This document shows positions 29,242-32,772 of a DNA stretch of 38,732 bases, piece by piece. Position 1 is the first letter of the stretch, and every line of letters begins with the position of its first letter. Where the stretch lies: NCBI GenBank assembly GCA_002715345.1, contig PAYR01000013.1, positions 1 through 38,732 of the forward strand, written 5' to 3'. The position numbers and the translations under genes are program-made. Below the pieces are notes generated by a model. That model was not told where the DNA came from, made no database searches, and saw only the letters and a list, made by a program, of their open reading frames with translations. The DNA is from Flavobacteriales bacterium. Its GTDB lineage: Bacteria; Bacteroidota; Bacteroidia; Flavobacteriales; UBA7312.

Positions 29242-30441
29242 ATGCCAAGAATATCAAACAAAGGGATACGAATGCCAGAATCACCAATTCGTAAATTGGT
29301 GCCGTTTGCTGAAGCAGCTAAAAAAGAAGGCAAAACTGTTTTTCACCTCAATATTGGTCAACCAGACATTAAAACACCTGAAGTAGCATTAGAAGCTATT
29401 CATAATTTTAGCGATAAGGTTGTTGAATATAGCCATTCCAGTGGTTTCGAAAGTTATCGTAAAGGGCTCGCTTCATACTATCAAAATTTAGGTATTGACA
29501 TTAACCATGAGAATATCATGGTAACCACAGGTGGGTCAGAAGCACTTTTGTTTGGTTTGAATAGTTGTTTAGATCCAGGTGATGAAATCATCATTCCTGA
29601 ACCGTTTTATGCCAATTACAACGGATTTTCTATTTCAGCTGGAATTACTGTTAAACCTATTGCCACCAACATCAACAATGGATTTGCACTACCTGCTATT
29701 GAAGAGTTTGAAAAACTAATCACTCCAAAAACAAAAGCTATTCTAATTTGTAATCCTGGAAATCCAACAGGCTATTTATATTCTAAAGAAGAATTAGAAA
29801 CACTTAAAGACATTGTTATTAAACACGATCTATTCTTATTTGCTGATGAGGTGTACCGAGAGTTTTGCTATGATGGGAACCAACACCATTCTGTATTGAA
29901 TATGGAAGGTTTAGAAAAAAATGCCATTGTTATTGATTCTACTTCTAAGCGCTACTCTATGTGTGGAATTCGTGTAGGGTGTATCGTTTCTAAAAACCAA
30001 GAAGTAATGGGTACCGCCTTGAAATTTGCACAAGCGCGTTTATCCCCTCCTACTTTCGGACAGGTTGCTGGAGAAGCTGCTCTTAACACCCCTATTTCTT
30101 ATTTTGAAGAAGTAAGTGCTGAGTATGTGAATCGTAGAGATTTACTGATTGATGGGCTTAATAAAATTGAAGGTGTAGTTTGCCCAAAGCCAAAAGGAGC
30201 TTTTTATTGTATTGCCGAACTACCTGTAGATGATGCCGACAAATTTGCACAATGGCTGTTGGAAGATTTCGCTTATGAAGGGGCAACCATTATGGTAGCG
30301 CCAGCTGCAGGATTTTATTCTACCCCAAACACAGGAACTAAGCAAGTTCGAATTGCGTATGTTCTGAACAAAGAATCATTGCAAAAGGCAGTTAAATGTT
30401 TAGAGGAGGCTTTGAAAGTTTATCCAGGAAGAACACTATAA
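29242..30441 (+). CDS. Class I/II PLP aminotransferase (aspartate aminotransferase-like)
   Basis: This 399-residue fold-type I aminotransferase has NIGQPDIKTP (38-47), TTGGSEALLFGL, PEPFYANYNGF (119-129), the cofactor motif NPGNPTG (171-177), ADEVYREF (201-208) and the PLP lysine K236 in STSKRYSMCGIRVG. The conserved arginine that binds the substrate carboxylate is in the C-terminal QVRIAYVLN. It belongs to the AspC-like aspartate/aromatic group; the amino donor cannot be fixed by sequence. The start lies 15 bases after the DUF1573 T run, with no visible -7 box. Its stop is followed immediately by the remains of a YkgJ-family N-terminus in the same frame. Confidence 0.9.
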   Translation: MPRISNKGIRMPESPIRKLVPFAEAAKKEGKTVFHLNIGQPDIKTPEVALEAIHNFSDKVVEYSHSSGFESYRKGLASYYQNLGIDINHENIMVTTGGSEALLFGLNSCLDPGDEIIIPEPFYANYNGFSISAGITVKPIATNINNGFALPAIEEFEKLITPKTKAILICNPGNPTGYLYSKEELETLKDIVIKHDLFLFADEVYREFCYDGNQHHSVLNMEGLEKNAIVIDSTSKRYSMCGIRVGCIVSKNQEVMGTALKFAQARLSPPTFGQVAGEAALNTPISYFEEVSAEYVNRRDLLIDGLNKIEGVVCPKPKGAFYCIAELPVDDADKFAQWLLEDFAYEGATIMVAPAAGFYSTPNTGTKQVRIAYVLNKESLQKAVKCLEEALKVYPGRTL

Positions 30442-30444
30442 ACA

Positions 30445-30590
30445 GTGGATTTAAAATAATACCAACTGGATAGCCAAAGAGTTAAAAAGGAGAATGCTAA
30501 ATTCTTCAAGCAAATCAAAAAAGTGAGGCCAAAGGTGCTGGACAAGTATATTCATGCAATACATGAAGAGAATTTTCTTGTATAGATTGT
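30445..30590 (+). pseudogene. Disrupted N-terminal part of the YkgJ-family gene
   Basis: Starting at GTG 30445, the frame reads (M)DLK, then TAA at 30457-30459, then YQLDSQRVKKENAKFFKQIK and VRPKVLDKYIHAIHEENFL, and stops at TAG 30583-30585. This matches the N-terminal helical region that precedes the cysteine cluster in Bacteroidota YkgJ-family proteins (pattern KENxKFFxxLKKxxPKxLDxxxHxxHEExF-x-x-IDCLxCANCC). The downstream part continues in another frame (IDCLKCANCC from 30582). The four-T run at 30573-30576 is where one extra T would restore a continuous reading (HEENFSCIDCLKCANCC). There are thus two lesions, one nonsense codon and one frameshift. Sequencing error is possible for the second. 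Confidence 0.65.
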
Positions 30591-30929
30591 TTGAAGTGCG
30601 CTAACTGCTGTAGCACAACAGGCCTTCTTTTTACCGATAAAGACATTAGCAGAATAGCCAAACATCTGCGAATGAAACCCTCGGAATTTACTGAGAAATA
30701 TTTGCGAATTGATGTAGAAAATGATTATGTTTTACAATCTGTCCCTTGCACTTTTTTAAGCACTGACAACTACTGTTCTATTTACGAAGTGCGACCAAAA
30801 GCATGCAGAGAATATCCACATACAGATCGTATGAAGCAACACCAACTACTTAAGCTCACCGAAAAAAATGTAAGTGTTTGCCCAGCTGTTTTTCAAATAA
30901 CAGAACAACTCAAAAAACAATTAAAATAG
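30591..30929 (+). CDS. YkgJ-family cysteine-cluster protein, N-terminally truncated frame
   Basis: The intact frame encodes 112 residues from a TTG at 30591 and carries the cysteine cluster of the YkgJ/Fli(B)-like putative zinc- or iron-binding family: CANCC near the start, then VPCTFLSTDNYCSIYEVRPKACREYPHTDR, with a later CPAVF cysteine. Family members are normally 160-170 residues. The missing ~50 residues are found upstream, interrupted by a stop and a frameshift (30445-30590). The TTG start is therefore probably an artefact of the damage, and the protein may not be made or may be truncated. The function of the family is poorly defined. It is followed by the outer-membrane barrel gene. Confidence 0.7.
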   Translation: MKCANCCSTTGLLFTDKDISRIAKHLRMKPSEFTEKYLRIDVENDYVLQSVPCTFLSTDNYCSIYEVRPKACREYPHTDRMKQHQLLKLTEKNVSVCPAVFQITEQLKKQLK

Positions 30930-30934
30930 ATTAG

Positions 30935-30942
30935 TAAATTTG
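30935..30942 (+). promoter_or_regulatory. -7-like box abutting an ATG
   Basis: TAAATTTG ends only four bases before ATG 30947. If it is used, transcription would begin at or next to the start codon and the mRNA would be leaderless. In AT-rich DNA a chance match cannot be excluded. Confidence 0.4.
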
Positions 30943-30946
30943 ATTA

Positions 30947-31534
30947 ATGAAGCATTTTCTTACAACATTCATTAGTTTTATACTTTGCCACAACACTTTT
31001 GGGCAAATCAACTATTACATTGGCGCTAATCTACTAAACACTCAAGCTATTGTATTAGTTAATGATCAGCAAGGAATTAAAAGCAGCCCTTCAGAATTTG
31101 GTGTATATATTGGTAACGAACTTACAGTTTACAAAAACATACAAATAGGAATTGATGTCTTCTACCAAAATAACAATACTATTTTAAATGAGTTAGAAGA
31201 ATATGAAACACGATTTGAGTTTCATCAAAACATTGGTATTAAAATCTCACCTGCTTATCGGTTTCAAAAAAACACATTCGGACTTAACTTAGGTGTTACC
31301 GGCATCTATATTTTTGATAAAAAAGAAGTAACAGGAAATCAGATAGACCGATATGATGAAGCATATGCCTATGGCGTTTTTTATGACAGAAGTTTTCACC
31401 CAAAATGGTCTTTAAATCTTTCTATGCTAAAAGCGAGATTTGATTCTAAGAGTCATTACACAAACGCGGAGATGAAGGCTTACACCACATTTTCGTTGGG
31501 ATTACAATACAATCTTTTTGGTAAAAACAAATGA
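30947..31534 (+). CDS. Outer-membrane beta-barrel protein
   Basis: This 195-residue protein has a signal peptide at about 1-19 (ending NTFGQ) and amphipathic strands with aromatic girdles: INYYIGANLLNTQAIVLV, FGVYIGNELTVYKNIQIGIDVFYQ, FHQNIGIKISPAYRFQ, FGLNLGVTGIYIF and TFSLGLQYNLFG. This is the pattern of small porin-like (OmpW/PorT-like) barrels of Bacteroidota. No specific family is recognised and the role is unknown. Its stop shares ATGA with the start of a DUF1697 remnant, evidence that the two were once a coupled pair. Confidence 0.8.
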   Translation: MKHFLTTFISFILCHNTFGQINYYIGANLLNTQAIVLVNDQQGIKSSPSEFGVYIGNELTVYKNIQIGIDVFYQNNNTILNELEEYETRFEFHQNIGIKISPAYRFQKNTFGLNLGVTGIYIFDKKEVTGNQIDRYDEAYAYGVFYDRSFHPKWSLNLSMLKARFDSKSHYTNAEMKAYTTFSLGLQYNLFGKNK

Positions 31535-31644
31535 GTACATACATTACACTTTTAAGAGGTGTCAATATCAGTGGGCAAAAAATTATTAAAATGGCCGACT
31601 TAAGGGCTTTTCTAACTAATGCTGGACTTAAATCGTTAGTATAG
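31531..31644 (+). pseudogene. DUF1697 gene remnant, 37 codons
   Basis: ATG 31531 opens a frame reading MSTYITLLRGVNISGQKIIK then MADLRAFLTNAGLKSLV and ending at TAG 31642-31644. This is the N-terminus of DUF1697 proteins (consensus around TYIxLLRGINVGGxxxIKMADLRxxLExLG), which are normally about 170-180 residues. The next expected segment (TYIQSGNV-like) is missing, and the sequence runs directly into the 3' end of namZ on the other strand. A deletion has removed about 80 percent of the gene. The ATGA overlap with the upstream barrel gene is preserved. Confidence 0.8.
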
Positions 31645-32772
31645 GAGGTAAGCCCTTCGCATTTCAGAAAAATTCACCAAATCTTTTTCCCATCCTTTCT
31701 TAATCTCTTGAGCAGATTTTCCTGCAATAATTTGTTCTTTCAACTCATCTGTTCCAGTAAGTTTATCGAAAAAGTTATTGAAGAAATGCTCTTTTTCAGG
31801 AGCTTGATTATAGGCGTCTATCAACCAATCCAAATTTAACTCAGTAAGTGATATTTCTTGCCTTAAATCAACACCATAGCAAACAGTATTTTCATGCTTT
31901 GGGTATTTACTCCCTGGCCCACTTACAGGTGTAAAATTATAGTCACTCTTTAAATAAGGTGCTCCAAAATGCTGAAATGGATTTTCAGTACCTCTTCCAA
32001 CACTCACCGTTGTCCCTTCAAACAAACATAAAGATGGATAAAGATTTACCGCTAAATCATTAGGTAAATTTGGAGAGGGTTTAATAGGTAAAGAATAAGG
32101 TGATTGTCTTTGATAAAAAATCATAGACACCACTAATAAGTCACAAGGTGATGAAATCCATTCTTCACCATTAATCATTTGCGCATACTCACCAATAGTC
32201 ATTCCGTGCACAATAGGTATCGGGTGCATCCCCACAAAAGAGCTGAAAGCGGTATCTAAAACAGGACCATCAACATAATGTCCATTCGGATTTGGTCTAT
32301 CCAACACTACTAACGAAACTTCATTTTCTGCAGCAGCTTCCATCACATAATGCAAAGTAGAGATATAGGTGTAAAAACGCGCGCCTACATCTTGTATATC
32401 GAATAAGATAACATCTACATCTTCGAGATGTTCTGGAAATGGCTTTTTGTTTTTGCCATACAAAGAAACAATAGGAAGTCCTGTTCGTTCATCAATCCCA
32501 TCCAACACTTTTGCTCCTGCATCAGCAGTTCCTCTAAATCCATGCTCTGGAGAAAATACCTTCACCACTTCCACACCTAAAGCAAGTAAACTGTCTACTA
32601 AATGGGTATTTCCTATCATAGAGGTTTGATTACCTACCACAGCCACTTTCTGAGCTTCTAACATAGGTAGATATAATTGAGTTTGTTCTGCGCCCAATCT
32701 AAACTGTGCTTCTACACAAGCGAATTGTAAACAACAGAAAAGTAAAGCGATTATTTGCGTAATTTTAACCAT
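31636..32772 (-). CDS. namZ: Exo-beta-N-acetylmuramidase NamZ-like (DUF1343, GH171)
   Basis: This 378-residue exported protein has a signal peptide (about 1-22) and a DUF1343 domain, the family of NamZ exo-muramidases that remove terminal MurNAc during peptidoglycan recycling. Conserved blocks are VVGNQTSMIGNTHLVD, VFSPEHGFRGTADAG (73-86, with the likely catalytic Glu76), ILFDIQDVGARFYTYISTLHYVMEAA, VLDRPNPNGHYVDGPVLD, PIPIVHGMTIGEYAQMIN, and PSPNLPN with LFEGTTVSVGRGTENPFQ. The C-terminus ends MRRAYLLY, a few residues shorter than usual. Its stop codon lies within the DUF1697 remnant, so the tail may have been clipped. The start is 7 bp from the divergent permease gene. Confidence 0.9.
   Translation of the reverse strand: MVKITQIIALLFCCLQFACVEAQFRLGAEQTQLYLPMLEAQKVAVVGNQTSMIGNTHLVDSLLALGVEVVKVFSPEHGFRGTADAGAKVLDGIDERTGLPIVSLYGKNKKPFPEHLEDVDVILFDIQDVGARFYTYISTLHYVMEAAAENEVSLVVLDRPNPNGHYVDGPVLDTAFSSFVGMHPIPIVHGMTIGEYAQMINGEEWISSPCDLLVVSMIFYQRQSPYSLPIKPSPNLPNDLAVNLYPSLCLFEGTTVSVGRGTENPFQHFGAPYLKSDYNFTPVSGPGSKYPKHENTVCYGVDLRQEISLTELNLDWLIDAYNQAPEKEHFFNNFFDKLTGTDELKEQIIAGKSAQEIKKGWEKDLVNFSEMRRAYLLY

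Follow-up and report, generated by a model that had tools for sequence, protein, structure and literature searches.

The window analysed here is a stretch of 38,732 nucleotides from a Flavobacteriales bacterium (contig PAYR01000013.1 of assembly GCA_002715345.1; genome G000 below). At the locus studied, an aminotransferase-like gene, which we take to be aspC, is followed by a ykgJ-like gene, a 195-aa ORF (named OMP195 here) and a very short frame, and the oppositely running gene namZ closes the group. The coordinates and the basis of each assignment are collected in Table 1.

Table 1. Features between the aminotransferase-like gene and namZ in the window
Feature	Position	Strand	Basis or remark
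Aminotransferase-like gene	29242..30441	+	In many relatives, the gene next to the left of ykgJ or namZ
ykgJ-like (CxxCxxCC) pseudogene	30445..30929	+	Early in-frame stop (TAA, 30457-30459); frame shifted by one base near 30573
195-aa ORF (OMP195), possible outer-membrane beta-barrel	30947..31534	+	Match to OMP_b-brl (E 5.3e-5) that falls short of the curated cut-off
5' remnant of DUF1697 gene, codons 1-35	31531..31635	+	PF08002 match; identity to G019
End of the stump with its stop codon (TTA GTA TAG), shared with the 3' end of namZ	31636..31644	+	Register comparison with G019
namZ, 378 aa, exo-beta-N-acetylmuramidase family by Pfam name	31636..32772	-	NamZ_N and NamZ_C profiles

In the open-reading-frame list of the window, 31531-31644 of the forward strand is an open frame of 37 codons that starts with ATG. 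The original prediction had described it as a stump whose codons match the N-terminus of DUF1697, and a profile search agrees for 35 of the 37: residues 1-35 align with positions 1-35 of the 137-position profile PF08002 (E 2.8e-11; 44.4 bits, against a curated family cut-off of 24.4), so the stump is not a chance frame. The domain itself is far from complete, as the other 102 profile positions are missing and only a remnant is left. The match also ends abruptly at the end of namZ, as had been noticed: the profile stops at position 35, and the TAG that closes the frame (31642-31644) already lies within the 3' end of namZ, giving an overlap of 9 nt between the two. At the other end, the ATG of the stump overlaps the TGA of OMP195 in an ATGA junction. 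Compared with the DUF1697 protein of genome G019, the N-terminus is 69% identical over 36 residues. The stump is the sole DUF1697 match in the window's genome, an assembly of 47 contigs and 1.2 Mb that is about 60% complete. For DUF1697 in general, the only relative of solved structure found with the intact G019 protein as query is 2hiy, a ‘hypothetical protein’ (E 3.2e-12), and the function of DUF1697 is not the subject of the papers found under the family name, as far as their titles and the first lines of abstracts go.

NamZ had been suspected of being a few residues short, which is not the case. Both of its domains are complete to the C-terminus in the window, with NamZ_N (PF07075) covering profile positions 1-201 of 203 (E 7.5e-81) and NamZ_C (PF20732) positions 2-152 of 152 (E 2.4e-36). 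The protein of G001, a genome of the same genus, has the same length of 378 aa, and the two end in ..RRAYLLY (window) and ..RRPYLLY (G001). In 38 NamZ proteins of two families, read from 39 loci (the protein of G089 is missing), a longer C-terminus was looked for: 26 end at the same ..YLLY-type tyrosine (24 by pattern, and two HLIY ends added by eye), and the other 12 are only 1-3 residues longer. Judged by its sequence, the namZ gene of the window is whole and was not cut by the deletion. A NamZ search of the contigs of named genomes, in which records very close to the window's genome may be missing, returned 44 loci, the best of them mostly from Flavobacteriales, with a top identity of 60%. 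At two places, G104:C1:661026-662160 and G079:C9:26584-27709, NamZ itself seems broken, with internal stops or split pieces.

The ykgJ gene is broken, as originally proposed. Its early TAA and its frame shift (Table 1) were recognised against the intact gene of 161 aa in G001, which is the reference for the shift, and the longest open remainder is 30591-30929 (112 aa). No other match to the ykgJ family was found in the window's genome assembly (about 60% complete). Between the window and G001, the 3' part of ykgJ shows a dS of 0.55 and a dN of 0.11, and namZ a dS of 0.72 and a dN of 0.11. Since the divergence of ykgJ from G001 is still marked by constraint, its decay too looks recent. With a DUF1697 remnant beside a second decayed gene, the description of 30.4-31.65 kb as a site of recent gene decay can be kept. 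The space between ykgJ and namZ is also variable: three other ORFs (568, 135 and 650 aa) lie there in G001 (L055:3441-7612), nothing lies there in G031, and ykgJ is absent at that place in G050. As the three other ORFs occur in a genome of the same genus, this interval turns over fast.

Relatives were compared for an intact DUF1697 gene at the locus, as the original prediction had suggested. Such orthologues stand beside namZ in G019, G057 and contig 124 of G098, all belonging to another family (f11) and none to the family of the window (f1). At these loci the order is ykgJ, lip149 (a 149-aa gene, lipoprotein-like by eye; present in 2 of 3), DUF1697, and then namZ facing DUF1697. In G019 (12 nt) and in G098 contig 124 (15 nt), DUF1697 and namZ overlap tail to tail; in G057 they do not overlap but are 0.66 kb apart with another ORF between them. 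The namZ stop lies opposite DUF1697 codon 173 (Leu) in G019 and opposite stump codon 36 (Leu) in the window, and the end of the intact G019 gene, TTA GTA AAG TAA, is in the same register as the TTA GTA TAG of the stump. Thus the original prediction was right that the namZ stop codon lies in the remnant sequence, but not in taking this for a trace of the deletion, because the same overlap is present with an intact DUF1697 gene in G019 and G098 contig 124. The bases 31636-31644 are the end of namZ too, and alone they would be no proof that the tail of DUF1697 survived, since G001 has similar bases without a DUF1697 gene at the locus. The OMP gene is missing from that locus of G001 as well, and none of the six remaining loci in the family of the window has DUF1697; it is therefore from another family that we infer an intact ancestor in the lineage of the window.

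The G098 bin holds both an intact DUF1697-namZ locus on contig 124 and a stump-namZ locus on contig 191 (L067, L069). Two organisms may be present in this one bin, for which 6% contamination is listed.

By tblastn with DUF1697, we compared 39 namZ neighbourhoods from 38 genomes, 8 of the window's family and 31 of f11, each reaching about 1.5 kb beyond namZ or less at contig ends. There are 37 f11 genomes with a NamZ match, and those left out are G079, G084, G085, G090, G091, G093 and G104; G105 contig 20 and G072 contig 152 are further places outside the survey. DUF1697 is intact at 3 loci, a 5' stump at 5 (the window, G042, G101, G098 contig 191 and G102), a 3' remnant at 3, and none was detected at 28. 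Several stages are found within a single genus, g14: the gene is intact in G019, reduced to 28-codon stumps in G042, G101 and G098 contig 191 (with frame ends that differ among the three), and a broken stump in G102, where the ATG is lost and a stop gained, while no stump was found at the locus in G096, whose lip149 directly abuts namZ (the neighbourhood reaches 60 bases beyond namZ there). The 3' remnants are those of G066 and, more weakly, G067 and G068 (E 4.7e-4). In G066, by eye, an apparent ykgJ start is followed by the last 22 DUF1697 codons, the mirror image of the window. Across the order, DUF1697 is present in 161 of 395 genomes, and in just three of the genomes, G000, G042 and G101, is the best match by E-value no better than stump strength; G098 holds both a stump and a better DUF1697 match, and the stumps of all four genomes are beside namZ.

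The g14 stumps are like the window stump in gene, place, orientation towards namZ and the 5' end being kept, but they comprise 28 codons instead of 35, have lip149 upstream and form a separate clade in the NamZ tree. In this tree, made by a quick method with SH-aLRT support only (G089 is absent, and G067 and G068 are labelled ‘none’), the four g14 stump loci are one clade (99) and G000 pairs with the stump-less G001 (100). From the different edges and the placement in the tree, it follows that the 5' stumps arose by at least two separate deletions. One deletion shared by all stumps was considered and rejected on the differing edges, the differing upstream genes and the NamZ tree. The 3' remnants also represent the same gene partly deleted at the same locus; unlike the window they keep the end of the gene beside ykgJ sequence, 22 codons of it in G066 and about 17 in G067 and G068 (a weak match), and they look like further separate deletion events.

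These observations make it highly probable that the 37-codon frame is a pseudogene stump, left by an internal deletion of a DUF1697 gene. In the ancestor, a complete DUF1697 gene of some 175 codons would have run towards namZ and shared about a dozen bases with its 3' end. The internal deletion, put at about 0.4 kb from comparison with G019, would then have taken out approximately codons 36-172. Its left edge would have fallen inside DUF1697 by chance, and its right edge would lie at or before the overlap, because the bases beyond encode the C-terminus of NamZ; selection on NamZ may have set this right edge. What remained would be the 5' end of DUF1697 and the few bases in common with namZ, where a stop is supplied by chance. 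The single deletion that had been proposed is retained in so far as it took most of DUF1697, but not for the end of namZ, whose C-terminus and stop position match those of relatives. A function for the stump is neither needed nor indicated under this scheme, and in relatives such stumps are in the course of being erased.

The window stump itself keeps a clean frame, its ATG and the ATGA overlap, and these points speak against a pseudogene. They would fit a working protein of 37 residues whose translation is coupled to that of the beta-barrel-like OMP195 and which selection retained once the rest of DUF1697 was lost. The persistence of 28-codon stumps in G042, G101 and G098 contig 191 could be cited for it as well, and so could the conservation of the window stump, which equals that of intact genes between families. 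Over 26 N-terminal residues, the window stump matches G019 at 21, where the two other intact f11 genes match at 24 and genes of other families at 19 or fewer; with G057 as reference the stump matches at 19, and other families at up to 20 (in this comparison row L008 is a wrong match by motif, and L020 is not part of it). The dN from the window stump is 0.13 to G019 and 0.14 to G057, compared with 0.05 between G019 and G057, in a comparison that excludes G098 contig 124, whose row started one codon before the ATG; the larger values are as would be expected for another family. In itself, then, the window stump is not clearly decayed, and this would fit a recent deletion and also a retained short ORF.

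The relatives point the other way. Between G101 and G102, the stump has seven non-synonymous and no synonymous changes (7N:0S), compared with 6N:13S in ykgJ (Fisher p 0.005) and 19N:22S in lip149 (p 0.011), small counts in each contrast. When expressed per non-synonymous site, the rate of the stump still differs from that of ykgJ (p 0.0007) but not from that of lip149 (p 0.10). With these small counts, relaxed selection on the G102 stump is indicated. The original prediction would have been undermined if purifying selection had preserved the same short ORF in relatives; what they have is a similar stump from a separate deletion, and in G102 this stump is without its start, has acquired a stop and has changed without visible constraint. 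Together with the differing frame ends of the g14 stumps, the lack of any stump in G096 and the survival of no more than the first 35 of the 137 positions in the domain profile, this led us to reject a short functional ORF as the main reading and makes a selected 37-residue protein very unlikely. We would give just as little weight to the idea that the 5' end of DUF1697 was kept on purpose, as a mini-protein started from the ATGA overlap, and that such fragments were retained independently in two lineages.

It is also scarcely probable that the junction is an assembly error and that the organism has an intact DUF1697 gene, although the assembly is fragmented (47 contigs) and only about 60% complete. 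The order and orientation of genes on both sides fit the relatives, the right side is the native end of namZ, the adjacent ykgJ is broken too, and the same kind of stump is found at four other assembled loci of another family. The weakest alternative, with next to no probability, is that stump and namZ arrived jointly from the f11 stump clade, making both kinds of stump one event: the NamZ of G000 and G001 does group with f11 and not with the six other f1 loci (an open fork, SH-aLRT 93), but the stumps end at different codons (35 versus 28), the upstream genes differ (OMP195 versus lip149), and the g14 stump genomes are a clade of their own while G000 pairs with G001.

The pseudogene stump is, in short, an ordinary deletion pseudogene beside a second decaying gene, in a stretch of rapid gene turnover. 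For annotation, namZ should be recorded as intact and not trimmed, and 31531-31644 and 30445-30929 as remnants and not genes. As a small worked example, the locus suggests how the possible end points of a deletion may be restricted when a retained gene overlaps tail to tail, and with decay visible at several stages in one place it is a clear illustrative case; otherwise it means little beyond bookkeeping.

In 30400-32000, promoter-like matches are at chance level (8, with 6.5 expected), and there are three terminator-like sites, compared with 0.8 expected from shuffles. A terminator kept for namZ was considered as a role for the stump and set aside, as none of the three falls within 31531-31644. 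OMP195 is matched in none of the nine other genomes of the window's family. Six proteins are clearly related to it (31-36% identity, E no higher than 1.7e-24), and they come from five f7 genomes and G065. The DUF1697 matches include none of these genomes, and OMP195 with DUF1697 as a travelling unit was rejected. In the window, OMP195 stands where several relatives have the 149-aa gene, which looks unrelated to it.
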